From contig NZ_AMSI01000011.1 of assembly GCF_000300515.1 (NCBI RefSeq), forward strand, positions 124,001 to 188,000: a DNA stretch of 64,000 nt, written 5' to 3'. A program made the position numbers and the translations under genes. Under the pieces are notes generated by a model that was not told the origin of the DNA, made no database searches, and was given only the letters and a program-made list of their open reading frames with translations. The stretch is from Nitratireductor indicus C115. GTDB lineage: Bacteria > Pseudomonadota > Alphaproteobacteria > Rhizobiales > Rhizobiaceae. This document shows, piece after piece, positions 13,701 to 41,807 of this stretch; positions within the stretch are counted from its first letter, which is position 1, and every line of letters starts with the position of its first letter.

Positions 13701-13747
13701 GCTTTCCTCCCCAATCACCAATGGGGTGGCCCATTGGTGCATATTTG

Positions 13748-22167: not shown

Positions 22168-25100
22168 ATGCTGCAAAGGCACAGCCACATCGCCGAATAC
22201 ACGCTCTCCGACCGCTATGACGCGACGAAGGGCCGGGTGTTCCTTACGGGAACGCAGGCGCTCGTTCGTATCCTGCTCGACCAGGCACGGCGCGACCGGC
22301 TGGCAGGCCTGAACACGGCAGGGTTCGTTTCAGGCTATCGCGGCTCACCGCTCGGCGCGCTCGACCTGGAACTGTGGCGCAACAAGGCCCTGATCGAGCG
22401 CGAGCGCATCTCCTTCATGCCCGCGGTCAATGAGGACCTTGGCGCCACCGCCGTTCTCGGTGCGCAACAGGCCGCGCTCGATCCCGATTGCACGGTCGAG
22501 GGCGTGTTTTCCATGTGGTACGGCAAGGGACCCGGCGTCGACCGGTCGGGCGACGCACTGCACCATGGCAACGCCTATGGCTCCTCCCCCAAGGGCGGCG
22601 TTCTGGTGGTCGCCGGCGACGACCATGGATGCGTCTCGTCCTCCATGCCGCATCAGTCGGACGTCGCCTTCATGAGCTGGTTCATGCCCACGCTCAATCC
22701 TTCCTCCGTCGAGGAATATCTGGCCTTCGGCGAATATGGCATCGCGCTGTCGCGTTTCAGCGGTTGCTGGGTCGGCTTCAAGGCGATTTCCGAAACGGTG
22801 GAATCGGGCCGCTCCGTCGAGCTTCAGCCGGACCGCCGGTTCACGCTTCCCCATTTCGAGGCGCCGGCAGGCGGGCTGCATGTGCGCCGGGCGGACCTGC
22901 CCAGCATCGAGATCGAAACGCGCATCGGCCACAAACTGAGAGCCGTGGAAGCCTTCGCCGAAGCCAATCCCATAGACCATGCCCTTTACGGGATAGAAGA
23001 TGCGATCTTCGGGATCGTCACCACCGGCAAGGGCCATCTCGACCTGATGGAAGCGCTCCGGCTTCTCGGCCTCGATGAGGCAAGATGCCGTGCGCTCGGC
23101 ATCGACATCTACAAGGTCGGCATGGTCTGGCCGCTCGCCCGGCGCGATGCGCTGGCCTTCGTGCGCGGCAAGAAGGAAGTGCTGGTGGTGGAGGAGAAGC
23201 GCGGCATCATCGAAAGCCAGTTCAAGGAATATTTCTACGACTGGCCGGGCGCCAAGCCGGACAAGATGGTCGGCAAGCACGATGCCCAGGCGACACGCGA
23301 TCTCGTGCCGTGGACCGGCGAGCTTACCCCGCTCGGCCTCGTGCCCATCGTGGCCGAGAGGCTCGACCGGTACTTTCCGGACGAGAACCTCCGCGAAAGG
23401 GCGCGTGCCCTGACGGAGGCTCCCGCAATCAGCCTCAGCGTGGCGGGCGCAACGCGTACGCCCTATTTCTGTTCCGGCTGCCCGCATAACAGCTCCACCA
23501 AGGTGCCGGAAGGCAGCAAGGCCGCATCCGGGATCGGCTGCCACGTCATGGCAAGCTGGATGGACCGGGACACCGAAGGCTATGCGCAGATGGGCGGGGA
23601 AGGCGTGCCCTGGGTGGCGCGTTCCCTTTTCAATGGTGGCCGCCACATGTTCCAGAATCTCGGAGAGGGAACCTGGTATCATTCCGGCTCGCTGGCCATC
23701 CGCCAGGCAGTGGCTGCCGGCACCAACATAACATACAAGATCCTCTACAACGACGCGGTTGCCATGACCGGCGGTCAGCCGGTCGATGGCCCGGTCAGCG
23801 TAGCGGGCATCGCGCAGACCTGTCGCGCGGAGGGCGTCGAGCGCATCGCGCTCGTCTCCGACGCAATCGGCAAGTTTTCCGCGGCTGACTTTCCCGCCCG
23901 CACGAGTTTCCACGACCGCGGCGAACTCGACGCCGTGCAGCGGGAATTGCGCGAGGTGAAGGGCGTGAGCGTGCTCATCTATGAGCAGACCTGCGCCACC
24001 GAGAAGCGGCGCCGGCGCAAGCGCGGCAAGATGGAAGACCCCAGGCGCTTCGCATACATCAATCCGCTCGTCTGCGAGGGATGCGGCGATTGCTCCGTGG
24101 AAAGCAACTGCCTCAGTGTCGAGCCGCTCGAAACCGCCTTCGGGCGGAAGCGCCGGATCAACCTTTCATCCTGCAACAAGGATTTCTCCTGCCTCAACGG
24201 CTTCTGCCCGAGCTTCGTAACGGTGGAAGGCGCGGAGCGTGCAAACCGCGCATCGCGCGACATCGACGCCCTGGCGCTTGCCGCGGAACTGCCCGAGCCC
24301 GAACTCGACCTTCTCGACAAGCCGTTCGATCTTCTGGTCGGTGGCGTCGGCGGCACGGGTGTCGTGACCATCGGCGCGCTTGTGACCATGGCCGCGCATC
24401 TGGAGGGGCTGGGCGCCAGCGTTCTCGATTTCACCGGCTTCGCGCAGAAATTCGGAACCGTACTGAGCTATATCCGGCTGGCCGCCGAACCGCGTGATAT
24501 CCATCAGGTGCGCATCGAAAGAGGTTCTGCCGATGCCGTGATCGGATGCGATATCGTTGTGGGCTCCTCGCCCAAGGCTTCGATGCATTACCGGAAGGGC
24601 ACACGCGTGGTGCTCAACACGGCCGAGATGCCTACGGGTGATCTCGTCTTGAGCCGCGACGCGGATTTGCGCACGGATGCGCGTGAGGCGGCGATCCGGG
24701 AGGCGGTGGGTTCGGAGAATGTCGAAGCGTTCGACGCCAACCGGTTGGCGGAAGAACTCCTCGGCGATCAGGTCTATGCGAACATGATCCTGCTTGGCTT
24801 TGCATGGCAATCGGGCCTCGTGCCGGTGAGCCGAGCCGCCCTCGACCGGGCCGTGGAGCTCAACGGGGTCAAGATCGAGGACAATCGCCGCGCTATTGCC
24901 ATCGGCCGAGTGATGGCCGCAACACCGGAGGCGCTGCTGGGCGCGGGCGAACCGGACGAGATTTTCGCAACGAGCCTGCCGGGCATCGTCGAGGATCGGG
25001 CGACATTCCTCACGGGCTATCAGAACGCGGCCTATGCGGAACGCTATAATGAGCGGATTGCCGCCTTTCATGGGCAATTATCCGACCGCCTTGCCGATCC

Positions 25101-25611
25101 GCTCGCCGAGATCGCCGCGCGGGCGCTGTTCAAGCTGATGGCCTACAAAGACGAATACGAAGTCGCGCGCCTGCACACACAGATGGGATTCGACAAGGAA
25201 CTGAACCGTGTCTTCAAAGGGGATTTCAGGGTTCGCTATCACCTTGCTCCACCGCTCCTGCCGCTTGGCAAGGATGCGCGGGGGCGACCCCGCAAGCACG
25301 CTTTCGGAGCGTGGATCAGGCCGGGGCTGCGCCTGCTCTCTCATCTGCGCGGTCTACGCGGAAGCTGGGCCGACCCCTTCGGATACACCAAGGAGCGGCG
25401 CATGAACCGCGCCCTGATCGGCTGGTATGAGAACATTCTCGACCAGGTGATCGCGCACCAGCAGGATGCTCAGCAGGAAACGCTCGAAGCGCTCCTTCGA
25501 ACGCCGCTCGAAATGCGCGGCTACGGTCCCGTTTGGGAGGCCGCGATGAAGCGCGAGAAGGCCAGGGCCGAGACGCTTCTGGCCGAGATCGGCGGTATCA
25601 CACCGCGCTGA
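22168..25611 (+). CDS. Indolepyruvate:ferredoxin oxidoreductase, fused alpha-beta form
   Basis: 1147 residues, the fused IorAB type of aerobic proteobacteria. It decarboxylates aryl-pyruvates to aryl-acetyl-CoA with ferredoxin as acceptor. The thiamine-diphosphate part includes GIGCHVMASWMD near residue 457; iron-sulfur Cys motif CEGCGDCSVESNC lies near 635 with further Cys in CNKDFSCLNGFC; the gamma-type domain starts at GGVGGTGVVTIGA near 724; a C-terminal DUF6537-like helical region completes it. It is monocistronic and divergent from its Lrp regulator. Its 3' end overlaps the convergent sulfoxide reductase gene by 14 bp. Confidence 0.94.
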   Translation: MLQRHSHIAEYTLSDRYDATKGRVFLTGTQALVRILLDQARRDRLAGLNTAGFVSGYRGSPLGALDLELWRNKALIERERISFMPAVNEDLGATAVLGAQQAALDPDCTVEGVFSMWYGKGPGVDRSGDALHHGNAYGSSPKGGVLVVAGDDHGCVSSSMPHQSDVAFMSWFMPTLNPSSVEEYLAFGEYGIALSRFSGCWVGFKAISETVESGRSVELQPDRRFTLPHFEAPAGGLHVRRADLPSIEIETRIGHKLRAVEAFAEANPIDHALYGIEDAIFGIVTTGKGHLDLMEALRLLGLDEARCRALGIDIYKVGMVWPLARRDALAFVRGKKEVLVVEEKRGIIESQFKEYFYDWPGAKPDKMVGKHDAQATRDLVPWTGELTPLGLVPIVAERLDRYFPDENLRERARALTEAPAISLSVAGATRTPYFCSGCPHNSSTKVPEGSKAASGIGCHVMASWMDRDTEGYAQMGGEGVPWVARSLFNGGRHMFQNLGEGTWYHSGSLAIRQAVAAGTNITYKILYNDAVAMTGGQPVDGPVSVAGIAQTCRAEGVERIALVSDAIGKFSAADFPARTSFHDRGELDAVQRELREVKGVSVLIYEQTCATEKRRRRKRGKMEDPRRFAYINPLVCEGCGDCSVESNCLSVEPLETAFGRKRRINLSSCNKDFSCLNGFCPSFVTVEGAERANRASRDIDALALAAELPEPELDLLDKPFDLLVGGVGGTGVVTIGALVTMAAHLEGLGASVLDFTGFAQKFGTVLSYIRLAAEPRDIHQVRIERGSADAVIGCDIVVGSSPKASMHYRKGTRVVLNTAEMPTGDLVLSRDADLRTDAREAAIREAVGSENVEAFDANRLAEELLGDQVYANMILLGFAWQSGLVPVSRAALDRAVELNGVKIEDNRRAIAIGRVMAATPEALLGAGEPDEIFATSLPGIVEDRATFLTGYQNAAYAERYNERIAAFHGQLSDRLADPLAEIAARALFKLMAYKDEYEVARLHTQMGFDKELNRVFKGDFRVRYHLAPPLLPLGKDARGRPRKHAFGAWIRPGLRLLSHLRGLRGSWADPFGYTKERRMNRALIGWYENILDQVIAHQQDAQQETLEALLRTPLEMRGYGPVWEAAMKREKARAETLLAEIGGITPR

Positions 25612-27919
25612 AGGGCGCCTTGTGCGGCCAGGCCATCGGTGCAGGCCGATCCCATTTCTCAAGCGAGACGAGGCAGAGCTGTCCCGCACAGCCCTGGCTC
25701 AACACGGAGGCCCCCGCATCGGAGGTGACGGCGTTTGGGTTGCCGTTGACGCAGGTCAGGCCTGCTCCCGGCAGGTCTTCCGGTGCATACCAGGCGCCGG
25801 TGGAGAGCTGCACCACGCCTTGCATGATCGCATCTGAGGGGCGTGCCGACGCCAGAACCGAACCGCGCTCATTGTGAAGCCGGATCACATCTCCATCACC
25901 GATCCCGAGGCGCGCGGCATCTTCCCGGTTGAGCCTTGCAACCTCACGTCCCTTTTCCTTTGCGGCCATGCTGGTCGCCCCGAAATCGAGCTGGCTGTGG
26001 AGGCGGGTTGCCGGCTGGTTGGAAACGAGCTGGAAGGGGTGACGCTCGGCCATTGGCGCGCACAGCCATTCGGCGGGTGCAAGCCATGCCGCGTGCCCCG
26101 GCAGGCCGGCGCCAGCCACAATTTCGGAAAACAATTCGATCCTGCCGCTCGGCGTCTCGAGAGGAGCGCCCGAAGGGTCTTCATGAAAGCGCGCCATCAT
26201 GCCGGGTGTGTCGCGCACCGGCAGGTCAATCCGCGCGCCCTGCATGAAATCCTCAAAGGACGGGGCATTGCAGCCGCGTTTTTCAAGAGCCGCGCGTGTC
26301 GGCTCATACATCTCTTCCAGCCAGCCTTGCGCATCGCGCCCCTCGGTGAAGATTTCCCGGCATCCGAGCCGGTCCGCGAGATTGGCGAAGATCGCATAAT
26401 CGTCGCGTGCCTCGCCAAAAGGCTCCGCGAGCTTTTCCATCGCGAAAAGATAAGGGTCGTTGCCACCGGCGCCGATGTCGTTTCTTTCTGCGGTGATGGT
26501 TGCGGGAAGAATGATATCGGCATGGCGCGCCGATGCGGTGAAGACGCTGTCATGCAAGATGATGGTCTCCGGCCGGGAGAAGGCCTCTTTCAGACGCGTC
26601 AGGTCCTGGTGATGATGGAAGGGATTGCCGCCGGCCCAATAGACGAGGCGGATATCGGCATAGCGGCGCGTTTCGCCCTTATAGGTGTAGGCAGCGCCCG
26701 GCTTCATAAGAAGCTCCGAGATGCGCGCGACGGGAATGAAATCGCCGACGCGATTATGCCCCTGCGGCATGGTGGGCAGTGGCACGGCCAGAGCCTCCTT
26801 GCCGATATTGCCGATGGAACCCAGACCGTAGCAGAAGCCCGCGCCGGGCAAACCGCCCTGCCCCAGCAGGCAGGCAAGCGTCAGCGCCATCCAGACGGGC
26901 TGTTCGCCGTTTTCCGCGCGCTGCAGTGAATAGGTTACGTTGATGAGCGTCCTGCTCTTCGCGGCGCGGTCGGCCAGCGCGGCGATTTCGGAGGCCGTAA
27001 CACCGCAGATTGCCTCGGCCCATTCGGGCGTTTTCGCGACACCATCGGAACTGCCCGTCAGATAAGCCTCGAAGGCTGGATAGCCCGTCGTGTAGCGCTC
27101 CAGATAGGCGCGGTCGACCCTGCCTGTCTGATGCAGTCTGTAGGCCATGCCAAGCATCAACGCTGTGTCGGTTGCGGGGCGCGGGGCAATACGCGTTACG
27201 CCCGGCAGATCGCTGAAATCATCGGCGATGGGACTGACTGAGACGAAACCGCAACCGCGAGCAGCCGCCCGTTGCAGCACGCTCTTGCCCAGGTGCCGGG
27301 AATTGCCGCCGGCGCTCACCGCCAGATTGCGCAGCGGCAAGCCGCCGAAGGAGATCAGAAGCTCGGTCTCCTCAGCAAGTTCGCGCAGATAAGGATGATC
27401 GCGATTGAGCCTGATCGCGTTGCCAAGCACCAGAGACAGGATCACGCTGCCCGCACCGGACGAATAGGTGTCCACGGAAGCGACATAGCCGCCGAAGACA
27501 CTGTTCAGAAAGCGATGCACCTGGCTTTGCGCGTGGTGGAAGCGGCCAGCCGAGGACCAGCCATAGGAGCCCCCGAACACGCTCGCACCGGGCAAAGGCC
27601 TGTCTTCCGGCAAGGCGGGCGCAGCGCCCAGCCGGCGCAATTCCTGCGCCGTCCGTTGCAGAGCCTCCTCCCACTCGACCTCGACAAACCCATCGGAACC
27701 GCGACGCTGATCCGGACCCGGGCCATCCTCCAGCCAGCCGCGGCGGATCAACGGCTTACGGATACGGGCCGGATGATCGAGAGACGCCGGAATATTGGCA
27801 AGCAGCGGCGACGGGTCGGGATCGGCCTCGAAGGGGCGGATGTCCAGCCTGCCGCCGTCCATCCGCGCGCTGAAGGCGCCCCAATGGCTGCTGTGCTGCC
27901 TGTACGCGGTGTCGTTCAT
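25598..27919 (-). CDS. Molybdopterin oxidoreductase, BisC/TorZ-type (biotin or methionine sulfoxide reductase-like)
   Basis: 773 residues of the DMSO-reductase family. GGSYGWSSAGRFHHAQSQ near residue 115 has the Mo-coordinating Ser, as in BisC/TorA; YWAGGNPFHHHQDL near 440 and the C-terminal dinucleotide-binding domain (SNQPATRLHSQLD) are typical. No twin-arginine signal is present (start MNDTAYRQHSSHWG), so it works in the cytoplasm like BisC. ATG 27919 was chosen because the longer frame adds Cys-rich sequence that reads through tctA. It is the last gene of the nine-gene operon, 4 bp after tctA, suggesting that an S-oxide is an intermediate or an imported form of the substrate. Confidence 0.9.
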   Translation of the reverse strand: MNDTAYRQHSSHWGAFSARMDGGRLDIRPFEADPDPSPLLANIPASLDHPARIRKPLIRRGWLEDGPGPDQRRGSDGFVEVEWEEALQRTAQELRRLGAAPALPEDRPLPGASVFGGSYGWSSAGRFHHAQSQVHRFLNSVFGGYVASVDTYSSGAGSVILSLVLGNAIRLNRDHPYLRELAEETELLISFGGLPLRNLAVSAGGNSRHLGKSVLQRAAARGCGFVSVSPIADDFSDLPGVTRIAPRPATDTALMLGMAYRLHQTGRVDRAYLERYTTGYPAFEAYLTGSSDGVAKTPEWAEAICGVTASEIAALADRAAKSRTLINVTYSLQRAENGEQPVWMALTLACLLGQGGLPGAGFCYGLGSIGNIGKEALAVPLPTMPQGHNRVGDFIPVARISELLMKPGAAYTYKGETRRYADIRLVYWAGGNPFHHHQDLTRLKEAFSRPETIILHDSVFTASARHADIILPATITAERNDIGAGGNDPYLFAMEKLAEPFGEARDDYAIFANLADRLGCREIFTEGRDAQGWLEEMYEPTRAALEKRGCNAPSFEDFMQGARIDLPVRDTPGMMARFHEDPSGAPLETPSGRIELFSEIVAGAGLPGHAAWLAPAEWLCAPMAERHPFQLVSNQPATRLHSQLDFGATSMAAKEKGREVARLNREDAARLGIGDGDVIRLHNERGSVLASARPSDAIMQGVVQLSTGAWYAPEDLPGAGLTCVNGNPNAVTSDAGASVLSQGCAGQLCLVSLEKWDRPAPMAWPHKAPFSAV

Positions 27920-27923
27920 GGTT

Positions 27924-29447
27924 CTACTCCATGTCCACCCGGTGAACCTGGCGGGAGCGCAGCTTCTGGCGGATGGGGCCAAGCGGCAGCGAGCGCAGGA
28001 TGAGCACGAGGCACAATGCCAGGAATATCGCACTGATCGGATGGTGCAGGAAGGTCATCGGATCCCCGCGCCCAAGAAGCAGCGCACGGCGCAGATGCTG
28101 TTCCATCAGCGGTCCGAGCACGAAGCCCAGAAGGAGGGGCGGAGCCGGATAGCGGAACAGCGCCAACACATACCCCACCACGCCGAACAGCAGCATCATA
28201 TAGACATCAAAGATGCTGTTGCGGATGCTGTAGACACCGATACACACGAAAACCAGCATGATCGGATAGAGGATGCGCGGTGGAATGGCCAGCATCCGCA
28301 CCCAGATGCCGATCAGGGGAATGTTGAGCACGAGCAATAGGACGTTGCCAATCCAGAAGCTGGCTGCGAGACCCCAGAAGATATCGCCGTGGGAGCTGAT
28401 GAAATCCGGGCCCGGCGTGATGCCGTGGATCATCAGGGCACCGATGAGGACAGCCATCACCACATCGCCCGGCACACCGAGTGTAAGCGTTGGAATGAAG
28501 GCCGTCTGCACGGATGCGTTGTTGGCGGCCTCCGGTGCTGCAATCCCCTCGATGGCGCCGGTGCCGAACTTCTCCGGGTTCTTCGAAACCTGCGTCTCGG
28601 CGACATAGGCAAGATAGGAGGCAAGGGCAGGCCCCGCGCCCGGCATCGCGCCGATGACGGAGCCGATGCCCATGCCCCGGAAGGTGGGCAGGATCGACTG
28701 CTTGAGCTGTTGCTTCGTCGGCAGCATGTCGCGCAGGCGCACGGAACTGGCGTTCAGAAGCACAGGACCCTTGCCTGCGAAGCTCGACAGGATTTCCGCC
28801 ACGCCGAACAGGCCGATTGAAAGCGCCACCAGACTGACGCCTTCCGCCAGATCGAGCACGCCGCCCGTGAAGCGGAATTCGCCCGTGTATTTATCCGTTC
28901 CGATCATGGAGAGGGCAAGCCCCGCAACCACCATCGTCATACCCTTGATGGGGGAGCCGATGGACAGGGTGGAAGCGGCCACCAGACCAAGCAGCATGAC
29001 CGAAAAATACTCGGCCGACGAGAAATTCATCGCGAAGGCGGAAATGACGGGCGCAAGCCCCATGACGAGCACGATGGCCATGGTGCCGCCGGCAAAGGAG
29101 GTGAGCGTCGTGATCATCAGCGCCACGCCGGCCTGTCCCTTCTGGGTCAGCGGATAGCCGTCGAGGCAGGTTACAGCGGCACTCGCCGTGCCTGGAATAT
29201 TCAGCAGGATCGAGGCGGTGGAACTACCGTATTGCGCGCCGTAGAAGATGCCCGCCAGCATGATCATCGCGGTGGTGGGATCGAGATAGAAGGTGATCGG
29301 CAGACATAGCGCGATCGCCGCCAGCGGTCCGAGGCCCGGCAGAACGCCAACGAAAGTGCCCACCGTGACGCCGATGAAACAGAACAGGATGTTGTGAGGC
29401 GTACTGGCAGTGGCGAAGCCGCCGAGGATCTGGTTCAGGAGGTCCAT
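27924..29447 (-). CDS. tctA: Tripartite tricarboxylate transporter large permease, TctA family
   Basis: 507 residues with about 12 membrane segments. Signature sequences are FVGVLPGLGPLAAIALCLPITFYLDP near residue 45, GIFYGAQYGSSTASILLNIPG near 77, and the second repeat GAMPGAGPALASYLAYVAE. ATG 29447 is the family start; the frame extension upstream lies in tctB. It is 4 bp after tctB and 4 bp before bisC. It moves a carboxylate captured by TctC across the inner membrane with a cation gradient. Confidence 0.95.
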   Translation of the reverse strand: MDLLNQILGGFATASTPHNILFCFIGVTVGTFVGVLPGLGPLAAIALCLPITFYLDPTTAMIMLAGIFYGAQYGSSTASILLNIPGTASAAVTCLDGYPLTQKGQAGVALMITTLTSFAGGTMAIVLVMGLAPVISAFAMNFSSAEYFSVMLLGLVAASTLSIGSPIKGMTMVVAGLALSMIGTDKYTGEFRFTGGVLDLAEGVSLVALSIGLFGVAEILSSFAGKGPVLLNASSVRLRDMLPTKQQLKQSILPTFRGMGIGSVIGAMPGAGPALASYLAYVAETQVSKNPEKFGTGAIEGIAAPEAANNASVQTAFIPTLTLGVPGDVVMAVLIGALMIHGITPGPDFISSHGDIFWGLAASFWIGNVLLLVLNIPLIGIWVRMLAIPPRILYPIMLVFVCIGVYSIRNSIFDVYMMLLFGVVGYVLALFRYPAPPLLLGFVLGPLMEQHLRRALLLGRGDPMTFLHHPISAIFLALCLVLILRSLPLGPIRQKLRSRQVHRVDME

Positions 29448-29451
29448 GGTC

Positions 29452-29910
29452 TCAGCCTCCGAAGATCGTGAAAGGAAGGCGGAAGCCATAGATGAAGAGT
29501 GCCACGCATCCCACGCACATGGCCGCTATCACGATACTGGTGGAAACCCAGCGGATCGGGCCATAGGCGAATGTGCCGATCAACATCAGGACGACGGTCG
29601 CCGGAACAAGCCCGAACGGCTCGACCATCAACGCCCACGCCACGACGGCGATGAGCACCAGGGCAACCGGGAGCGGCGGCGAAACATCCACCTCGATACG
29701 GCTGCGCAAGGCGCCGAAAAGACAGATGAGGCTGCAAAGGCAAAGCGCGCAGCCGATCAGAAACGGCATCGCACCGGCGCCGATGCGCCGCATCGAGCCC
29801 AGACCGTGACCATAGGCGATGATCGTGAAGCCAAGACCGATCGCCAAAAGAACGAGGGCGATTGCAATATCGGCATATTGCGCGCCCCTGATTTGCTTTC
29901 CATTTCCCAT
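29452..29910 (-). CDS. tctB: Tripartite tricarboxylate transporter small permease, TctB family
   Basis: 152 residues with four hydrophobic segments (YADIAIALVLLAIGLGFTIIAYG near the N terminus, then RIGAGAMPFLIGCALCLCSLICLFG). I use ATG 29910 (MGNGKQIRG), preceded by GGGGATC; two further in-frame ATGs lie upstream and cannot be excluded. It partners TctA, 4 bp downstream. Confidence 0.88.
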   Translation of the reverse strand: MGNGKQIRGAQYADIAIALVLLAIGLGFTIIAYGHGLGSMRRIGAGAMPFLIGCALCLCSLICLFGALRSRIEVDVSPPLPVALVLIAVVAWALMVEPFGLVPATVVLMLIGTFAYGPIRWVSTSIVIAAMCVGCVALFIYGFRLPFTIFGG

Positions 29911-29991
29911 TTTGATCCCCATTGATCCCCAGGGCATTTTATTGTTTCGAAACCGGAGGCCGTCGCTCGGCCCCGATGCAAGCCTATCCCT

Positions 29992-30789
29992 CTAGCCGGC
30001 AAGGCCCCAGCCGCCGCGGGCGCGGCCCGACGGATCGGCCCCGGCGAGGTCCAGGCCGAACAGGCGACCGGCGCCGATATCGCGCGGCGTGAGCCCCGCC
30101 CCGCGCATGGCACGCCAGAGCGTCGCCGAGTTGGACGAAATCACCGGCCGTGCAAGATCAGCTTCCAGTGCGGCGATACGGTCCATGGAGCGCAGGTTCG
30201 TGCAGCTCAGGAAAACGGCATCGCAGTCTCTGATCGCGCTGCGATGGCTGAGCGCAAGCGCCTCCACGTCGCGCGAATTGATATCCCGGATCAACTCGGA
30301 ACTCGCGCAGCCGAATGTGGCATTGCCGGGAACGGGATGCCCCGCCTTTTCCAGAAACGCGATCTCGGCAGCGTGAATATCATCGGGATAGGGACTGATC
30401 AAAAACACCGTCCTTGCCTGAAGCGCGGCCAGAGCGTCGAGCACCGCACGCGTCGTGGTCACTGCGGCTACACCCGAAGCCGTGGCGATCTTTTCCGCAA
30501 TCGTATCGAGCGCATCGTCGGCCCCGAGGAAACTGCCCGACGTGCAGGCATAGAGTATGATGCGGGCATCGATGCCACCCAGGAGGCGCGATTGATGCTC
30601 GACACTGTCCATCATGCGAATGAGCGATTCCTGCGTCAGCGCGGCGCCCTCGCGTGGAAGGCGTGAGAAGTGAGCTGTCACACCATCGGGCAGGAACTGC
30701 GGAAACTCGGTCTCGCAGGCAACGTTTCTTTCGGGAATGACGAAGCCGAGCCGAACCGGCGTTGCAGGCAGGGGCTTGAAGGGTTCCAT
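29992..30789 (-). CDS. Asp/Glu racemase superfamily enzyme, maleate cis-trans isomerase-like
   Basis: 265 residues. The two catalytic Cys of the family are visible in LYACTSGSF near residue 80 and FLSCTNLRSMD near 195. Members isomerise maleate to fumarate or decarboxylate arylmalonates. ATG 30789 follows AAAAAGCGAT and gives the family length; a longer frame reaches 30852. It sits between tctC and tctB in the organosulfur operon, which fits handling of a C4-dicarboxylate (or its thioether) brought in by the transporter; the true substrate is unknown. Confidence 0.82.
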   Translation of the reverse strand: MEPFKPLPATPVRLGFVIPERNVACETEFPQFLPDGVTAHFSRLPREGAALTQESLIRMMDSVEHQSRLLGGIDARIILYACTSGSFLGADDALDTIAEKIATASGVAAVTTTRAVLDALAALQARTVFLISPYPDDIHAAEIAFLEKAGHPVPGNATFGCASSELIRDINSRDVEALALSHRSAIRDCDAVFLSCTNLRSMDRIAALEADLARPVISSNSATLWRAMRGAGLTPRDIGAGRLFGLDLAGADPSGRARGGWGLAG

Positions 30790-30899
30790 ATCGCTTTTTC
30801 CTTTTCGGAAGGGCCCGTCGCTTTTCGCAGGGCCTTGCCGGTCCTGCCGCAACCGATCCCTTCGGACCGAATTACGGGAACCATCCGCCGCGTCCTTGC

Positions 30900-30929
30900 G
30901 GGTGGGGCGGGTGGGGCGGGCGGGACGGG
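30900..30929 (+). promoter_or_regulatory. G-quadruplex-forming tract between tctC and the isomerase gene
   Basis: Seven runs of three or four G separated by single or double bases occupy 30 nt (GGGTGGGGCGGGTGGGGCGG, then GCGGGACGGG). The G-rich strand is the template strand of the minus-strand operon. It lies in the 202-bp gap after tctC, next to a stem-loop, so it could slow transcription beyond tctC. Confidence 0.6.
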
Positions 30930-30940
30930 CGGAGCATGCG

Positions 30941-30963
30941 GGGGCCGGTCGATCTCCGGCCCC
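30941..30963 (-). promoter_or_regulatory. Stem-loop after tctC
   Basis: GGGGCCGG (30941-30948) pairs perfectly with CCGGCCCC (30956-30963) around a 7-nt loop, 28 bp past the tctC stop codon. There is no U-tract, so it is likely an attenuator or RNA stabiliser rather than a full terminator. Confidence 0.6.
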
Positions 30964-30991
30964 GGCAAATCACCCAAGCGTCACTGAGACA

Positions 30992-31972
30992 TCACTTGGG
31001 CGCGCTGGCACCGGCAAGCTTGACCATGTAGGCCCAGTTCTCGATCTCGGAAGCGACGAAGGCCTTGAACTCCTCCGGCGTCGAGCCGACGGGTACGGAG
31101 CCGAGTTCCTTGTTGCGCTGGACGACATTCTCATCCTTGAGAGCTGCCGCCGTCGCCTCATAGAGTTTCTGGACGATGGCATCGGGCGTGCCGGCCGGGG
31201 CAAAGATGCCCTGCCAGGAGATGGCAACGATCTTCTCGCCACCCGATTCCACGAAAGTCGGAACATCGGGCAGGAGCGGGTTGCGCTCGGCAGCCGTCAC
31301 AGCGAGCGGCTTGGCGATCCCGGCCTGAATTGCCTTGATGGCTTCTGGCAGATTGTTGATGGCAATCTGGACATCGCCCGCATTCAACGCGTTGTTCACT
31401 TCCGCGCCACTGTCATAGGGCACGTTTTCCATCTCGACGCCGTAATTGTCCTTGATCAGCTCGAAGGTGAGGTAGGGCGAGTTGCCCACGCCCGGCGTCG
31501 CGTAGAGCTCACCCGGATTTTCCTTGGCGAAGGCCATCAGGTCCTTCACGTTGTCAAACTTGGAATCCTTGGAAACCAGAAGGACGCTCGGCTGCTGGAT
31601 AAGCTGGGTGACCGGCGCGAAATCCTCGAGAACCTTGTATGGAATGGTGTCGGCATAAAAGGCCGGTGCAATGGCTTCGCTCGCCACATTACCCATCAGA
31701 ATGGTGTAGCCATCCGGGTCTGCCTTCGCGACCACGGCCGAGCCGACCGTACCGCCGGCGCCGGGCCTGTTTTCGATGACGACGGGCTGGCCAAGCAGCT
31801 TGCCCATCGGTTCCGCCACAAGCCGCGCGATGATGTCGGCAGCGCCACCCGGCGCCCATGGCACGATCATGGTGACCGGACGATCCGGATAATTCTGGGC
31901 GTGGGCCGCTGTGCCAAGCACGGCCATGGAAAGCGCGCCGAAGGCGGCTGCCAAGGTTTTGATCTTTTTCAT
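30992..31972 (-). CDS. tctC: Tripartite tricarboxylate transporter periplasmic binding protein (TctC/Bug family)
   Basis: 326 residues. The signal peptide MKKIKTLAAAFGALSMAVLG ends with TAAHA before QNYPDRPV. Family hallmarks are VPWAPGGAADIIARLV near 38, ENRPGAGGTVGSA near 67 and ATPGVGNSPYLTFEL near 160. Bug proteins bind carboxylates (citrate, succinate-like acids, acidic amino acids) in the periplasm and hand them to TctAB. It is the fifth gene of the operon, placed ahead of the membrane subunits by the isomerase gene and a 202-bp structured gap. Confidence 0.95.
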   Translation of the reverse strand: MKKIKTLAAAFGALSMAVLGTAAHAQNYPDRPVTMIVPWAPGGAADIIARLVAEPMGKLLGQPVVIENRPGAGGTVGSAVVAKADPDGYTILMGNVASEAIAPAFYADTIPYKVLEDFAPVTQLIQQPSVLLVSKDSKFDNVKDLMAFAKENPGELYATPGVGNSPYLTFELIKDNYGVEMENVPYDSGAEVNNALNAGDVQIAINNLPEAIKAIQAGIAKPLAVTAAERNPLLPDVPTFVESGGEKIVAISWQGIFAPAGTPDAIVQKLYEATAAALKDENVVQRNKELGSVPVGSTPEEFKAFVASEIENWAYMVKLAGASAPK

Positions 31973-32039
31973 CGTCTTTCCCCTGAGGTTCGGTTTGTCA
32001 TGTCGCCGTTTTCCGGTTCTTGTGATTGCCGCATTGCGG

Positions 32040-33077
32040 TCAGACGGAAACTTCCGTCCATTCGAGCGCCACGAAGGCGATGCGGTCGCCGGTGTGAACC
32101 ACCGGGTCTTTGCGGATACCTATGATCAGAACGTCCTGCGGCATGGCCGGTTCGGCCATGGAGCGTCCTGTGATGCTGCAGATCGCGCCCAGCGGCTTGC
32201 CAGCCTCAATTTTCATGGCCGGGCGATTGGCAGTCCGGAACAATCCGCCCTCGCGCGTCATCACATGGGTGCGCCGGGTGACGCGGCACAGCTTGTCGGC
32301 GGGCTTGCGGCGCGGCGCGGCGATCATGCCCATTTCGGCGGCGACGCCACACAGCCCCGCCACACCGAGTTCGACGCAGCCCTCATCCGTCTCACTGCCC
32401 GACCCCAGCTCGACCATGAAGGCCGGCTTGCCGCGGGCCAGCATCTGGTAATCGATCGCTCCGGGAATATTGCCGGGAAGCTCGCCCGCGCCGGGCGCGA
32501 CATTCATGCGGCAGGCAACGACGGGATGGAAATGGCGGATCATCGAAAACAGTTTAGCTTCATCGACACCGCTATCGGGATGCAGCTTGTAGACCGCATA
32601 GGGGTCCGAATAGAACAGGTTGTTCATGGTGTGCATGGAGATCAGCACATCCGCACAATCAGCAGCGGCTGCAAAAAGCGCGGCCGACATCTGGTCGCTG
32701 ACAAGCCCGTTTGCATTGCCCGGGAAGGTCTGGTCGAGGTCCTGGTCGTCCTGCGGCGCGGTCTTGCGACGCGCATCGAGGGCCAGCGGATTGGCCGTGG
32801 AACTAAGCACGACCGAACCCGAAAGCTCCGACGGATCGAGACCTTCGATGAAATCGAGAGCGGCCCAGATGCCATTGATCTCGTTGCCGTGAACCTGCCC
32901 GGAAATCCATAGGCAGGGGCCGGGCTTCTCACCCTTGAGAATGAGGAAAGGAAGGGCGATCTCGGCGCCGGAGGCGAAGCTGCCAACACGAATACGCCCC
33001 TCTGTCAGGCTTCCCGGTGCGGCGGCGGCAAAGGCTTCTGCAAAACCTGCCCCGGTCGAAATCCGCTCTTTGCTCAT
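32040..33077 (-). CDS. Succinylglutamate desuccinylase/aspartoacylase family zinc amidohydrolase
   Basis: 345 residues. The zinc site is seen in SGQVHGNEINGIWAAL (His-x-x-Glu near residue 63), with a later His in DVLISMHTMNNLFY and a candidate catalytic Glu in AFMVELGSG. Such enzymes remove an acyl group (acetyl, succinyl) from N-acyl amino acids; the aspartoacylase relative ACY3 deacylates mercapturic acids. It lies between the C-S lyase and tctC, so an N-acylated substrate is a reasonable guess. Start ATG 33077 follows AAGGGGAAAGAACG. Confidence 0.88.
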   Translation of the reverse strand: MSKERISTGAGFAEAFAAAAPGSLTEGRIRVGSFASGAEIALPFLILKGEKPGPCLWISGQVHGNEINGIWAALDFIEGLDPSELSGSVVLSSTANPLALDARRKTAPQDDQDLDQTFPGNANGLVSDQMSAALFAAAADCADVLISMHTMNNLFYSDPYAVYKLHPDSGVDEAKLFSMIRHFHPVVACRMNVAPGAGELPGNIPGAIDYQMLARGKPAFMVELGSGSETDEGCVELGVAGLCGVAAEMGMIAAPRRKPADKLCRVTRRTHVMTREGGLFRTANRPAMKIEAGKPLGAICSITGRSMAEPAMPQDVLIIGIRKDPVVHTGDRIAFVALEWTEVSV

Positions 33078-33121
33078 CGTTCTTTCCCCTTTTTTGTTTG
33101 AACCCAGCGGTAGAGCCGCTT

Positions 33122-34279
33122 CTATTTGAATTGAGCGGTCAGGCCTGCCGCCAGATCAGCGATGAGATCATCGGGATCTTCCAGCCCCACATGCAGGCGC
33201 ACCAGAACCCGGTCATCGACGGAGGCTTCGTGATTGCGCGTTGGATGCGGAAGCGTGATCAGGCTTTCAAAGCCTCCCCAGCTCGATCCGATGCCGAAAT
33301 AGTCGAGCCCGTCGGCGAAGCGGCGCGCGGCCTCGTGATCATTCGATTTCAGCGTGAAGGCGAAAAGACCCGAAGCGCCGTTGAAGTCGCGCTTCCAAAG
33401 CGCGTGATCGGGATGGCTTTCCAATGCGGGATAATGAACCGCCGCCACCTCCGGGCGCGCCTCAAGCCACCGGGCGACCTTCAGCGCATTCTGCTGATGC
33501 CGCTCAAGCCGCAGCCCCATGGTGCGCAAGCCGCGCAGGGCAAGATAGCAATCGTCGGGTGCGGTGGAATAACCGAGAAGACCGACCATGTTCCGCACCG
33601 TGCTCCAGGTCGCCTCGGAACACACGATGAGGCCAAGCATCGCATCGGAGTGGCCAACGATATATTTGGTGGCCGCGTGGATGGAAATGTCGACGCCCTT
33701 CTCGAAGGAAGGAAAGAGCAAGGGCGTGGCCCAGGTGTTGTCGTTCATGACAGGAATGCCGCGCGGTGCTGCCACCGATGCGATGGCCAGGATATCCTGC
33801 AATTCGAACGTGCCGGAACCCGGGCTCTCGCAATAGATCGCCACCGTTTCCGGGCGGATCAGATCGGCGATCTCCGCACCGGTGCGCGGTGCGAAATATT
33901 CGACATCGACCCCCAGGGGACGCAGATAGGATTCACACAGGTTGCGGGTCGGGCCGTAGACGTTGTCCGTCACCAGAAGATGCGTGCCCGGCTTGGCATA
34001 GGCGAGAAGCGAAGCCGAGACAGCGGCAAGCCCCGAGGGCATGACAATCGCGCGATAACCGCCTTCCAGCTCGGCCACCGCATCCGCAAGGGCAAATGCC
34101 GTTTGCGTGCCGTGGCGGCCATAGCGCAGCGTGGTGTATTTCTCCTTGCCCGCCGCATCGTAGCTGTCCATGTCCGGGAACAGGATGGTCGATGCGCGAA
34201 CGATTTCCGGGTTCACCGCAACCGGGCGATCCTTTGCGTGAGGCCGTCCCAACCGTGCGATCTTCGTGTCTTTCTTCAT
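33122..34279 (-). CDS. PLP-dependent trans-sulfuration family enzyme (cystathionine beta-lyase-like C-S lyase)
   Basis: 385 residues of the Cys/Met-metabolism PLP family. Landmarks are YTTLRYGRHGTQTAFALADAV near residue 48, GYRAIVMPSGLAAVSASLLA near 75, and the PLP Lys in SIHAATKYIVGHSDAMLG near 200. It resembles the MetC branch, which makes thiol, pyruvate and ammonia from S-substituted cysteines by beta-elimination. ATG 34279 lies 4 bp after the rhodanese gene; the longer frame only reads into that gene. In this operon it would supply the thiol oxidised by the dioxygenase. Confidence 0.9.
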   Translation of the reverse strand: MKKDTKIARLGRPHAKDRPVAVNPEIVRASTILFPDMDSYDAAGKEKYTTLRYGRHGTQTAFALADAVAELEGGYRAIVMPSGLAAVSASLLAYAKPGTHLLVTDNVYGPTRNLCESYLRPLGVDVEYFAPRTGAEIADLIRPETVAIYCESPGSGTFELQDILAIASVAAPRGIPVMNDNTWATPLLFPSFEKGVDISIHAATKYIVGHSDAMLGLIVCSEATWSTVRNMVGLLGYSTAPDDCYLALRGLRTMGLRLERHQQNALKVARWLEARPEVAAVHYPALESHPDHALWKRDFNGASGLFAFTLKSNDHEAARRFADGLDYFGIGSSWGGFESLITLPHPTRNHEASVDDRVLVRLHVGLEDPDDLIADLAAGLTAQFK

Positions 34280-34283
34280 GGGG

Positions 34284-35915
34284 CTACCTCGCCTTCTGTA
34301 GGGTTCTTGCAGGGGCAATGGCTGCAGCGCCGCTTTCGACCACTGGCGCGGGACCACGCGTGAACACGCCCTTTTCCTGCGCATCCATCTGATCGATCAA
34401 GCCCGTTTCCCACGCCAGATAACGGCGCGCGGCCTCCAGACTGCCGTCATGCCTGTCGTGAACGAAGAACAGGAAGTCGATCATGTCGGCATCGGCAGGC
34501 ACATCCGGCGTCGCTTCGATGGCGAGCCCCGCCTCGCGCCATTGTGCCGGACTGCCGGGGAGAACGCGCAGATCCGCATATCCCATGTCCATCAGGTCGC
34601 CCGCCGCGAGGCAAAGTATCGTCGGCTCCTGACCCGCGAGGATCAGCGGACGGGCCGGATCAAGATCGAGCGCGGCAAGCCGGGGGCGAATGGCCCAGAT
34701 AGCGCCCTCGATATGCCCTTCGCGATAGGCCTTGCCGGGAGACACGTCGATCAATTGAGCGCCTTCGGAAAGCGCCGTGGCGGCCTCGCCTGCAGAAATT
34801 GTGGCAAGCCCCGCCGTCCAGTCGCGTTCGGCCGGAGCGGGCACGGCATGTTCACGCGTATCGACATCGAGGATGACGGCATCGTGCCCCATACGGCGCA
34901 GCCAGAACGCGGTGGTTGCCGCGCGAATATCGCGATTGTCGGCAAGCACGATGCGCGCGCCGCGCACCCCGATCCACTGATCGGTCGCTTGAACGAGCTG
35001 CCCTCCCGGCGCATGTGCGGCACCGGCAATCGTGCCATTCGCAAACTCTTCCGCGCTTCGGACATCGAGGAGAAACGTGGTGCGCGTATCGTCCGCAAGC
35101 CAGGCCTGAAGAGTGTCATGGCTTACAAGCGGCAGGCCGTTGAGTTCGACAAAGGCAGCGCGGCGGGCCGCGACATCGGCGAGCGTGTCGTCCGTCGGCT
35201 CGGGAAGCGGCAAGGGCTGCGAACCATATTGCAGGGTCAGCCCTGCAAGCTGCCAGCCCTGCGAACCATTGCGCAAGGCGTGGATCGGATTTGTGAAGCC
35301 GAGGTTGCGCAGTGTCTGCGCGCCGATGATGGAACGCGTGCGGCCGGCGCAGTTGATAACGATACGCGTCTGCGGCTTCATCACCAGTTCGCCGATGCGC
35401 AGACCCAGTTCAGCATTCGGACAGGAGCGCGCGGTGGGTATGTTCATCTTGGCGAATTCGGCCGGGCTGCGGCCATCGAGAATGACCATGTCCTCGCCCG
35501 CGCCGATCATAGCGTCCAGTTCCTCGGCGGAGACCGAGGGCGTGCCCATGTCGTGTTCCACCATCTCGCCATAGGCCTTCGAGGGGACATTCACTCCTTT
35601 GAAGAGGCCGAAGCCGGCTGCCTCCCATGCGGGAGCGCCGCCCCTGAGAATGAAAACGGAGCTGTAGCCAAGGGTTTCGAGCTCATGCGCCGCGCGCTCG
35701 GCAACGCCATCGCCATTGTCGAGAAGAACCACCCGCACGGCCCGGTTGGGAACCAGGCGCGGCGCTTCGGCCTCCAGAACGCTGAAAGGGCAGTTGACCA
35801 CGAAGAAGGGATGGCCTTCGCCATATTGACCGTGCTCGCGCACGTCGAGAAAGGCGATCTCGGCAGCCTCCGACAGGGCGGCCTTCACCTCTTGAGGCGA
35901 CATTGCTGACGTCAT
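34284..35915 (-). CDS. Four-domain rhodanese-like protein with one catalytic cysteine
   Basis: 543 residues made of four rhodanese domains (about 5-110, 125-240, 260-370, 380-480). Only domain 2 has the active loop with Cys (INCAGRTRS, near 190); the matching positions read LLDNGDG, LADNRDI and LAGQEPT in domains 1, 3 and 4, which lack Cys. Rhodaneses carry sulfane sulfur as a Cys persulfide. It lies 21 bp after the thiol dioxygenase and 4 bp before the C-S lyase, so sulfane sulfur or sulfite handling in that pathway is likely. The C-terminal tail (about 480-543) is not rhodanese-like. Confidence 0.92.
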   Translation of the reverse strand: MTSAMSPQEVKAALSEAAEIAFLDVREHGQYGEGHPFFVVNCPFSVLEAEAPRLVPNRAVRVVLLDNGDGVAERAAHELETLGYSSVFILRGGAPAWEAAGFGLFKGVNVPSKAYGEMVEHDMGTPSVSAEELDAMIGAGEDMVILDGRSPAEFAKMNIPTARSCPNAELGLRIGELVMKPQTRIVINCAGRTRSIIGAQTLRNLGFTNPIHALRNGSQGWQLAGLTLQYGSQPLPLPEPTDDTLADVAARRAAFVELNGLPLVSHDTLQAWLADDTRTTFLLDVRSAEEFANGTIAGAAHAPGGQLVQATDQWIGVRGARIVLADNRDIRAATTAFWLRRMGHDAVILDVDTREHAVPAPAERDWTAGLATISAGEAATALSEGAQLIDVSPGKAYREGHIEGAIWAIRPRLAALDLDPARPLILAGQEPTILCLAAGDLMDMGYADLRVLPGSPAQWREAGLAIEATPDVPADADMIDFLFFVHDRHDGSLEAARRYLAWETGLIDQMDAQEKGVFTRGPAPVVESGAAAIAPARTLQKAR

Positions 35916-35936
35916 CGATTTTATGCTGCCTCTGCT

Positions 35937-36509
35937 TCAGCGCCGCGTCTTCACGCCGACGGACATGATCTTGGTCGTGCCGGCTTCCGGGTCGAAAACA
36001 AGGCGTTCGGTCAGGGTTTCAAGGGGACGTCCGTACATATGAAGGTGGCGGATGGGCTGTTCGCCCTGAATTTCCACGTGATGGACATCGTCGGGCATCA
36101 TCGCAACACCAGCACCCGGCTCCACGGACACGACACGGTCGACGCGGATTTCGGCGCGACCGGGAACGCTGCCATCGTCGAGCCGCTCATAAAGCGTGTT
36201 GTGTTCAACACCTTCCACCGCCGCTATGCAGGCCCAGGTGGTGTGGTTATGCGGCGGGATCTTCTTTCCCGGCAACATGACGTTGAGATAGAGGGTGAGC
36301 CCTTGAGGGTCGTCCTGCGCGATAAGATAGCGGGCCTGACGTTCGCCTTCATCCGGCCCCGGGTAATCGGCCTCGCCCCACAGCTCGCGCTTTGCCGCAA
36401 GCCCGATCAATGCATTCTTGGCATCCTCCAGCGCCTCACGGCTCGGCCCGTCGGCCATGGTCACACGCACCTTGGCCAGAACAGCTTCAACTTCTTGTTC
36501 GCGGGTCAT
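35937..36509 (-). CDS. Cysteine dioxygenase-family thiol dioxygenase
   Basis: 190-residue cupin. The iron ligands are His87 and His89 ([10 protein letters not shown]) and His144 (DVHHVEI). Cys94 aligns with Cys93 of mammalian cysteine dioxygenase and Tyr159 (HLHMYG) with its Tyr157, so the Cys-Tyr crosslink seems possible, while the Ser of the Ser-His-Tyr triad is replaced by His. Family members oxidise cysteine, 3-mercaptopropionate or mercaptosuccinate to sulfinic acids; which thiol applies here is open. ATG 36509 has AGGAAG before it. It is the first gene of the operon and lies about 100 bp from a LysR-type palindrome. Confidence 0.9.
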
Positions 36510-36611: not shown

Positions 36612-36628
36612 CATTAGCAGCGCTAATG
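36612..36628. promoter_or_regulatory. LysR-type operator upstream of the thiol dioxygenase operon
   Basis: CATTAGC-AGC-GCTAATG is a perfect dyad containing the T-N11-A pattern of LysR-family sites. It lies 103-119 bp before the dioxygenase start and 44 bp after the end of the LysR gene. Confidence 0.65.
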
Positions 36629-37624: not shown

Positions 37625-38539
37625 TCAGGCGGCGGCCTCGGGCACGACAGTGCGGACGATCGACGCATCGAGCGCTTCATAATCGGCCAGCCCAATCGTG
37701 TCGTAGAGTTCGGCGCGGGTCTGCATCTCCTCCAGCATCGCCCTTGTGGCGTCATCGCGGCGCAGAGTGTCATAGAGGCGCGCCTGCGCCTTGTTGGCAA
37801 CCCGCAAGGAAGAAACCGGCCAGATCACCATGCGATAGCCCATCTCCTCGAATTCCGAGGCCGTGAAAAAGGGCGTGCGGCCAAATTCGGTCATGTTGGC
37901 CAGAAGCGGCACACCCGGCAATTTCACGGCAAAGGCGCGGAACATCTCCGCTGATGTCAGCGCTTCAGGGAAGATCGCGTCGGCGCCAGCCTCCATATAC
38001 AGGCGGGCACGCGCCACGGCGCCGTCGATTCCCTCGCTCGCTGCCGCATCCGTGCGGGCAACGATGTAGAGATGGCGGCGCGCGCTGGCCGCGGCCGCAA
38101 CCTTGGCCGCCATATCCCGTGCGTCGGCGAGCTTCTTGTCGTTCAGATGGCCGCATTTCTTTGGCAGAAGCTGGTCCTCGATATGAACCGCGCCAGCACC
38201 TGCATCCTCGAAGCTGCGCACCATGTGCATCACATTGAGCGCTTCGCCATAACCGGTATCGCCATCCACCAGAAGCGGCAGGCCGCTGGAACGGGCGATC
38301 TGCCGGATGAAGAAAGACACCTCATCCACGGTGATGATACCGAGATCGGGAAGCCCCATGGAAGCGGTCATGGCGGCGCCCGAAAGATACAACGCCTCGA
38401 AGCCAGCCTGCTTCGCCTGCAATGCGGCCATGCCGTTATGCGCGCCTGGAAGTCTCAATATGCCGCCGCGCTCAACCAGCGTGCGGAAACGCTCGCCGGC
38501 GGGCTGTGCCGGAAGATCGGAGGAAACAAGATAAGGCAT
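37625..38539 (-). CDS. prpB: 2-methylisocitrate lyase
   Basis: 304 residues of the isocitrate-lyase/PEP-mutase family. The signature KKCGH (GAVHIEDQLLPKKCGHL, near residue 125) holds the catalytic Cys, and GDTGYGEALNVMHMVR near 88 binds Mg2+. It splits 2-methylisocitrate into pyruvate and succinate, the last step of the methylcitrate cycle for propionyl-CoA. ATG 38539 gives the family length. Last gene of the operon thioesterase-prpD-prpC-prpB, 14 bp after prpC. Confidence 0.95.
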   Translation of the reverse strand: MPYLVSSDLPAQPAGERFRTLVERGGILRLPGAHNGMAALQAKQAGFEALYLSGAAMTASMGLPDLGIITVDEVSFFIRQIARSSGLPLLVDGDTGYGEALNVMHMVRSFEDAGAGAVHIEDQLLPKKCGHLNDKKLADARDMAAKVAAAASARRHLYIVARTDAAASEGIDGAVARARLYMEAGADAIFPEALTSAEMFRAFAVKLPGVPLLANMTEFGRTPFFTASEFEEMGYRMVIWPVSSLRVANKAQARLYDTLRRDDATRAMLEEMQTRAELYDTIGLADYEALDASIVRTVVPEAAA

Positions 38540-38553
38540 CGGTTCGACCTCTC

Positions 38554-41249: not shown

Positions 41250-41656
41250 GTAGTGACTTCCTCTGGCTTTGCTTGATTTGGAATGGGCGTGGGCACGCCG
41301 TCGGCATTGACGGCCACCATCATGAAGCGACCGCTGAGCGCCATGTCCGACACCCCTGCATCTGGGTCCTCGGCTTCCACCTCAACGAGGACGGTCATCG
41401 AGGAGCGCCCGCGAAAGACGACACGGGCGCGGATATCGGCGATCTCACCAAGCCGGAACGGCTTGTGGAACTCGATACTGTCTGCCTTCGCCATGACGAC
41501 CGGGCACCGGGCATAACGGGCAGCACAGACAAAAGCGGCCTTGCCCATCAGATGCAGCGCATTGGCGCCGTAAAGTGTGCCGTAATGATTGGTAAGGCTC
41601 GGAATGACCAGTTCGAAAAAGCGGACCTCGCCCTCCGGGGATGCATGTAGCTCCAC
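41246..41656 (-). CDS. Acyl-CoA thioesterase, hotdog fold
   Basis: 136 residues. The family signature is [20 protein letters not shown] near residue 23 and [19 protein letters not shown] near 64. It hydrolyses short acyl-CoA thioesters. It starts with GTG after GGAGG and leads the prpDCB operon, where it may relieve toxic propionyl-CoA or methylcitrate-cycle intermediates. A prpE propionyl-CoA synthetase is not present, so propionyl-CoA is probably made by another route such as branched-chain amino acid breakdown. Confidence 0.88.
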
Positions 41657-41761
41657 TTGCCTGCCTCCAGAATTGTGCGGAACCCTCTTTTCTCATTCGC
41701 AATATCCGCATAGTTTGAACGACGTAAATCACTGAAAAAGCAGAGGTTTGCGAAGATTAAT

Positions 41762-41786
41762 CTGCAAATTTGCAAAGTTTGCAAAT
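41762..41786. promoter_or_regulatory. PrpR/RamB-type operator
   Basis: CTGCAAATTTGCAAAGTTTG and on to CAAAT contains TTTGCAAA (41769-41776) overlapping AAAGTTTGCAAA (41774-41785). These match the sites known for actinobacterial RamB/PrpR (AAAGTTTGCAAA and TTTGCAAA). It lies 22 bp before the regulator's TTG start and about 105 bp before the thioesterase start, so it can serve both directions. Confidence 0.8.
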
Positions 41787-41807
41787 CCGCAGAGGAGGAG
41801 AAGTACC

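Follow-up and report, generated by a model that had tools for sequence, protein, structure and literature searches.

The operon and its dioxygenase

The window discussed here, a stretch of 64,000 nucleotides from Nitratireductor indicus C115 (contig NZ_AMSI01000011.1, positions 124,001-188,000 of the forward strand, renumbered from 1 below), contains on its minus strand, at 25598-36509, a run of nine genes headed by msdo, the gene of a putative mercaptosuccinate dioxygenase (Msdo), and preceded by a gene for a LysR-type regulator (Table 1). The intergenic gaps are 21, 4, 44, 67, 202, 81, 4 and 4 bp, the start codons of the nine genes having been picked by eye. A preliminary description had proposed a nine-gene operon on one strand with gaps of 4-202 bp and a LysR gene upstream, and the coordinates agree with this. 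All ten genes are found in the identical order in N. pacificus (L001), with 89-97% identity to those of the window.

Table 1. Features of the msdo operon and of the region before it
Feature	Position	Strand	Basis and remarks
LysR-type regulator, 281 aa	36673..37518	-	Pfam LysR_substrate and HTH_1; upstream of msdo, same strand
Palindrome ATTAGC-N3-GCTAAT, candidate LysR-type box (T-N11-A)	36613..36627	-	117-118 bp before msdo
msdo, predicted mercaptosuccinate dioxygenase, 190 aa	35937..36509	-	8vni, E=6e-71; conserved His/Tyr set
Four-domain rhodanese	34284..35915	-	Pfam, 4 stretches
Cystathionine-beta-lyase-like (MetC-like) pyridoxal phosphate (PLP) C-S lyase, 385 aa	33122..34279	-	TIGR01324 above cut-off; 1cl1, E=1e-96
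AstE/AspA-family zinc deacylase, separate subfamily	32040..33077	-	PF24827; H63, E66, H149 and E223 kept
TctC periplasmic binding protein	30992..31972	-	PF03401; 2dvz, BugD 2f5x
AMDase/EutA/maleate-isomerase-like enzyme, C82 and C196	29992..30789	-	PF17645; 3ixm, 2xec
TctB membrane subunit	29452..29910	-	PF07331
TctA membrane subunit	27924..29447	-	PF01970, E=3e-151
BisC/DMSO-reductase-like molybdenum S-oxide reductase, 773 aa	25598..27919	-	1eu1, E=1e-161

The family assignments of the preliminary description are backed by Pfam and NCBIfam, except that the dioxygenase, which had been called a cysteine dioxygenase (CDO) fold, is closest to Msdo. In a phmmer search against the PDB it matches a mercaptosuccinate dioxygenase (8vni) with 241 bits, and its four other matches, all of the cysteine/3-mercaptopropionate dioxygenase type, have E values of 2e-9 or weaker and scores of about 40 bits or less. 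Cysteine dioxygenase itself was ruled out, since there is no CDO_I (PF05995) match genome-wide and the closest relative is Msdo. Residues H87, H89, H143, H155, H157 and Y159 are invariant across 16 sequences and include a three-His iron site and an HxY motif, which we take to have the roles assigned in work on CDO and 3MDO. The operon dioxygenase is therefore, as judged from its sequence, a mercaptosuccinate dioxygenase, an activity demonstrated in its relatives. Msdo is rare among the sampled genomes: at E<=1e-25 it is found in 11/297 genomes of the order (4 of them >250 bits), at E<=1e-60 in 8/399 of the family of genome G467, and furthermore in 7/398 of the phylum (2 of them >250 bits) and 3/11 of the genus.

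According to the accessible text of the paper on Advenella mimigardefordensis (PMC5373536), growth on mercaptosuccinate has Msdo as its key enzyme, which has a KM of 0.2 mM and an activity of 17.1 umol per mg and min and is under the control of an adjacent LysR, and its product, sulfinosuccinate, breaks down to succinate and sulfite. In the same source msdo is clustered with genes for a rhodanese and a cystathionine beta-lyase both in strain DPN7 of this species (MIM_c37410-37480) and in Variovorax paradoxus B4, in the latter of which a molybdopterin oxidoreductase is proposed to act on sulfite. Since the window has these same three genes and, like Advenella, a LysR gene next to msdo, 4 of its 10 genes (lysR, msdo, rhodanese and lyase) are of a known kind. 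The Advenella cluster includes an amino-acid ABC transporter that is raised on mercaptosuccinate versus succinate (MIM_c37450, 22.7 and 5.6 in two spots; MIM_c37480, 7.0 and 6.8) and, as far as its figure legend tells, names no deacylase, BisC, EutA or tripartite tricarboxylate transporter (TTT), unlike the window; the lyase is mentioned twice in the accessible text, each time merely as a neighbour (PMC5373536). A cysteine thioether as substrate would explain both the neighbouring lyase and the amino-acid ABC transporter. The catabolism of 3,3'-dithiodipropionate (DTDP) in Advenella by Mdo is similar to the window in that a CDO-type thiol dioxygenase is adjoined by TctC genes (PMC5373536), and different in that the substrate is 3-mercaptopropionate and desulfination is CoA-dependent, by Acd. 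The preliminary description knew no pathway with this set of genes; this has to be given up for Msdo, rhodanese and lyase (with LysR in Advenella), which are published, and stands for the extension, that is, the AstE/AspA-like deacylase, BisC-like reductase, EutA-like isomerase and TctCBA, of which no description was found in the literature searched.

Recurrence of the extension at msdo loci

In order to place the extension, 33 msdo loci were compared by tblastn with the window proteins; they include near-copies (e.g., L065/L066 and L012/L013), and the sequence extends for less than 4 kb downstream in L009, L011, L012 and L014. Conserved co-occurrence, the check put forward in the preliminary description, was found: a rhodanese occurs at 32/33 loci, a MetC-like lyase at 25/33 and a LysR match at 24/33, more than chance would give, and N. 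pacificus retains the complete gene order. The deacylase occurs at seven loci (its L055 copy is split into two frames), all of them with the lyase. A strong BisC match occurs at four, all of them with the deacylase, and EutA at two, both with BisC; a weak BisC match at L011 (25% over 357 residues) was left out of the count. The nesting of BisC within the deacylase loci has a p of ~0.0009, calculated by hand from the locus counts with near-copies included.

Deacylase and BisC accompany msdo in two Cupriavidus replicons and in Paracandidimonas. In Cupriavidus campinensis MJ1 (L064) and Cupriavidus sp. EM10 (L062), LysR, msdo, rhodanese, tctC, lyase, astE, tctC and bisC stand in a single run, unlike the window without EutA and without a TctA match in the stretch; the run carries no annotation in the sequence collection. 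Two further Cupriavidus replicons (L065 and L066) have, behind metC at 13686-14123, a piece of bisC (residues 445-505) and then one of astE (residues 245-342). A plain deletion of the extension was ruled out for them because the pieces run opposite to the L064 order and so are rearranged and decayed remnants. The extension is thus real and recurrent, and a coupling of deacylase, lyase and Msdo is supported by comparative genomics. The idea of the preliminary description that a C4-dicarboxylate thioether gives mercaptosuccinate is strengthened, both by the dioxygenase being of the Msdo type and by the recurrence of deacylase, lyase and Msdo together.

The simplest alternative is that free mercaptosuccinate is the substrate and that lyase, deacylase and BisC have broader tasks in the handling of sulfur, the molybdoenzyme aiding sulfite disposal as was proposed for Variovorax. 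The published growth on mercaptosuccinate via Msdo and the molybdopterin oxidoreductase proposed for sulfite (PMC5373536, accessible text) favour it, as do six loci with msdo and rhodanese (L006, L013, L014, L049, L054 and L067) that show no lyase within the stretch, which covers 3.7 kb or more downstream. However, it leaves unexplained both the dedicated deacylase subfamily and the difference between msdo-linked lyases and housekeeping MetC described below, and the molybdoenzyme is of the S-oxide reductase type, so we consider this alternative unlikely, though the most serious of the four weighed here.

Several msdo loci have other neighbours. On plasmid pSR7 of Aminobacter sp. SR38 (L063, 7803-18570) the "M14" deacylase near msdo belongs to the same subfamily as that of the window, and the cluster further includes a LIV-type ABC transporter, IclR and a nitrilase-like gene. 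A Marinobacter sp. M3C plasmid (L067, 9001-18452) has an msdo-like gene, matched in two pieces, and a rhodanese, without a lyase match, next to genes for a CoA-ester lyase, a CaiB CoA-transferase, MmgE/PrpD, an acyl-CoA dehydrogenase and MaoC, and is perhaps a CoA-dependent mercapto-dicarboxylate variant. At L054 (9619-13776, genome G781) msdo and rhodanese are found with tctC and a CitE-like CoA lyase, 41% identical to the Marinobacter one, again without a lyase match. These two loci, by their CoA-transferase, MaoC, MmgE/PrpD and CoA-ester lyase genes and by the CitE-like gene, respectively, speak for a methylated or homologous thioether as substrate, such as the itaconate adduct S-(2,3-dicarboxypropyl)cysteine. 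Yet neither has a lyase or deacylase match and the sulfinate of this primary thiol is not likely to shed sulfite spontaneously, so a substrate of this kind is highly improbable for the window operon.

Deacylase, lyase and the remaining components

The deacylase retains H63, E66 and H149, presumably the zinc ligands, and E223, presumably the catalytic Glu. All 7 full sequences of its subfamily share R103, K105, D(L/M)DQ-x-(F/Y)PG and GELPGNI, whereas DoeB and other solved relatives have Arg and NLNR-x-FPG at the corresponding sites, so that K105 and D115-Q116 stand in place of the substrate Arg and the NR of Aspartoacylase, AstE and DoeB. All sampled subfamily copies read DLDQ, which occurs in 0/30 other homologs from the homolog loci; these 30 readable ones all keep Arg at the Q position, and 5/35 were unreadable. 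In aspartoacylase the residues replaced here bind the substrate, and the subfamily therefore probably acts on a different acyl-amino acid. An AlphaFold model of the deacylase (3 sequences; mean pLDDT 64, motif loop 95-127 <50) was of too low quality for K105, D115 and Q116 to be positioned.

A profile of this subfamily, built from msdo-linked copies and so biased toward them, finds it in 4/696 sampled genomes. Three are among the 399 from the family of G467, with scores of 586 and 523 bits and a broken copy of 321 + 215 (next best 91), and one is among the 297 from the order, with 579 bits (next best 129); three of the four copies stand beside msdo. As msdo is present in 12/696, the co-occurrence has a Fisher p of 1.6e-5, or 7e-4 minus the window's genome. 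The fourth copy, in genome G916 (L150, 8356-10513), is also of the DLDQ type and lies directly behind a MetC-like gene; this pair adjoins F420-biosynthesis, alanine dehydrogenase/transhydrogenase and IclR genes.

For the lyase tree 53/63 sequences were kept, five being dropped as duplicates (L098, L099, L120, L111 and L153) and five as distant (L090, L091, L092, L155 and L156), and L070, which lies in an msdo cluster, was renamed L157_MS. The 22 housekeeping MetC sequences form one group (98/94), a single clade of the 27 msdo-linked lyases is not rejected (p-AU 0.53), and the window lyase falls within a subgroup of four (99/92). The lyase of genome G1054, at first labelled housekeeping, grouped with the window copy, and its region then proved to hold msdo and rhodanese. 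Two separate recruitments of the lyase had also been considered; this was withdrawn when the "housekeeping" sequences L098, L099 and L120 turned out to be the window/N. pacificus locus and L070 to lie in an msdo cluster, the corrected labels being compatible with one clade. At position 338 (E. coli numbering) the msdo-linked lyases have Ala (15), Ser (10), Gly (1) or Thr (1) and never Tyr (0/27), whereas the housekeeping ones have Tyr (20), Trp (1) or Ala (1). Y338 is named among the specificity determinants of E. coli cystathionine beta-lyase in the title of a paper cited in the accessible part of PMC5025676. Arg at MetC position 115 was rejected as a substrate marker, because most housekeeping MetC also carry it. 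The window's genome has four more cystathionine-lyase-family paralogs beyond the operon copy (C5, C4, C24 and C1).

The loop Cys of the window rhodanese is confined to domain 2 (C189, CAGRTRS), and CAGRTRS is kept in 34/34 relatives, near-copies included. The BisC-like protein aligns with DMSO reductase (1eu1) across most of its length, the Ser of its YSSG stretch standing against the YS of the reductase, and its G-S-Y-G-W-S stretch is invariant in 5 sequences, which places it in the MGD S-oxide reductase family; we assume the Mo-Ser and the Tyr of SYGW to have their usual roles. The sulfoxide-reductase label of the preliminary description holds as a family assignment, the score staying below the bisC_fam (TIGR00509) cut-off (799 bits vs 1018). 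No Tat signal was seen in this protein on inspection by eye. In one family sample BisC is found in 3/8 msdo genomes versus 3/99 others (p=0.005, weak and post hoc), and the G916 genome has no BisC match.

The isomerase label fares similarly: both active-site Cys residues of the maleate isomerase/Asp-Glu racemase type (C82 and C196) are present, and conserved in L001 and L010, and the protein scores above the Amdase cut-off and far below that of EutA (TIGR02990; 99 bits vs 318). TctC, TctB and TctA are all present by Pfam, giving a complete TTT system, a type of transporter that takes varied substrates. This, and the resemblance to EutA and EutE/DoeB, would also suit a transcript with two functions, one module serving mercaptosuccinate and the other (AstE, EutA and TctCBA) an unrelated N-acyl amino acid or ectoine-like carboxylate. 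Against it, the G916 deacylase lies directly behind a lyase without a TTT match there, and the deacylase accompanies msdo at 7 loci, one of which has a LIV-type ABC transporter instead; we regard two functions as very improbable.

A palindrome lies before msdo (Table 1), and ATTAG-N5-CTAA[T/A] 114-198 bp before msdo is matched also in L001, L062, L064, L065 and L157, that is, in 6/26 msdo upstream regions from Nitratireductor to Cupriavidus, counted without a shuffle control. A promoter and terminator scan gave matches no more frequent than in shuffles. Beyond the operon end an indolepyruvate-oxidoreductase-like protein (POR + DUF6537, 22168-25611) is encoded convergently, overlapping bisC by 14 bp. 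Upstream of lysR, at 37625-43214, are methylcitrate-cycle-like genes on the same strand (MmgE/PrpD, citrate synthase, PEP-mutase/PrpB type), which are probably unrelated to the operon, and an ScfR-type regulator gene on the opposite strand.

A possible route for succinated cysteine

Fumarate succinates cysteine, a frequent and stable form of thiol damage. From the above we suggest, at just under an even chance, that the operon serves mercaptosuccinate catabolism and is enlarged so that the cell can grow on an N-acylated cysteine-succinate thioether. The simplest such substrate would be N-acetyl-S-(2-succino)cysteine (2SNAC), either free or in sulfoxide form. TctCBA would import the polycarboxylate, the BisC-like enzyme would reduce a sulfoxide to the thioether, and the AstE-like enzyme would strip the N-acyl group to give S-(2-succino)cysteine (2SC), from which the MetC-like lyase would release mercaptosuccinate, pyruvate and ammonia by beta-elimination. 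Msdo would then oxidise mercaptosuccinate to sulfinosuccinate, which would decay to succinate and sulfite, the rhodanese would deal with sulfite or sulfane sulfur, and a possible task of the EutA-like enzyme is epimerisation at the racemic succinyl carbon or isomerisation of maleate. This order, from import and sulfoxide reduction through deacylation, beta-elimination and dioxygenation to sulfite handling, is read from function and from the nesting described above; what we infer is the thioether as substrate and its acyl group, the sulfoxide step, the specificity of transport and the role of the isomerase. A TTT system would be suited to such compounds, since both 2SC and 2SNAC carry three carboxylates and 2SNAC lacks a free amine.

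Two published routes of 2SC breakdown, yxe/scm of Bacillus, Enterococcus and Dickeya, acetylate 2SC and cut the succinyl-S bond by YxeK or 2SL, so that cysteine is saved (PMC9706529 and PMC12757645, accessible parts). The proposed route has in common with them the compounds 2SC and 2SNAC and an N-deacetylase; unlike them, it would deacylate first, cut the Cys-S bond and lose the cysteine. None of the nine operon proteins has a Pfam or NCBIfam match to the yxe/scm families (YxeK monooxygenase, 2SL lyase, acetyltransferase, YxeP deacetylase), the rest of the genome not having been searched. No publication joining mercaptosuccinate with succinocysteine was found in the literature searched, which lacks most subscription journals.

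A number of observations weigh against this proposal. The single clade of msdo-linked lyases has weak support (60/83), and 3/3 other MetC-like paralogs also have Ala and no Tyr at 338, so that the loss of Tyr338 marks non-housekeeping lyases rather than this substrate. The nesting of deacylase within lyase loci, calculated by hand with near-copies included, is not significant by itself (p ~0.11). BisC is no exclusive partner of msdo, a possibility that was rejected because BisC-like genes without linkage to msdo exist in 6/14 msdo genomes, and the window's genome has one besides its operon copy; EutA is found in two lineages only, and TTT genes are common and varied. In the accessible data on Advenella, the ABC transporter is mostly raised on DTDP too (DTDP/S 3.1, 8.6, 3.1 and 0.9), other uptake proteins are raised on mercaptosuccinate (8.1 for DctP, 7.3 and 4.1 for two TTT receptors), and the table of proteins raised at least 3-fold contains neither lyase nor rhodanese (PMC5373536). 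Moreover, the sequence neither specifies the acyl group nor establishes the succinyl thioether. Finally, the G916 region of 19.9 kb holds no msdo and no TTT match was found there, so a deacylase-lyase pair need not feed Msdo.

This last pair favours a general degradation of mercapturates (N-acetylcysteine S-conjugates) by a broad lyase, with Msdo oxidising any dicarboxylic thiol formed, and aminoacylase 3, a member of the AspA family, deacetylates mercapturates, a point for which no supporting paper was found in the literature searched. No publication on a mercapturate deacetylase-lyase cluster was found either, in the same literature. Since the cluster ends with a thiol dioxygenase close to Msdo, a dicarboxylic thiol is to be expected, which speaks against so general a role, and we think it quite unlikely.

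If the operon does act on 2SNAC, it may constitute a third catabolic route for 2SC, one that destroys cysteine: once the sulfoxide is repaired, 2SNAC would be deacylated, mercaptosuccinate would be split off by beta-elimination, and its dioxygenation would leave succinate and sulfite. Msdo would then have the disposal of succinated cysteine as its natural job, with the lyase as its feeder. We put this forward still more tentatively than the substrate itself. It would send the carbon of 2SC to succinate and its sulfur to sulfite and show a fate of environmental 2SC and mercapturates. In addition, it would explain the lyase of the published Msdo clusters, which has no stated role, and would give a natural role to mercaptosuccinate dioxygenase, an enzyme so far tied to growth on mercaptosuccinate.

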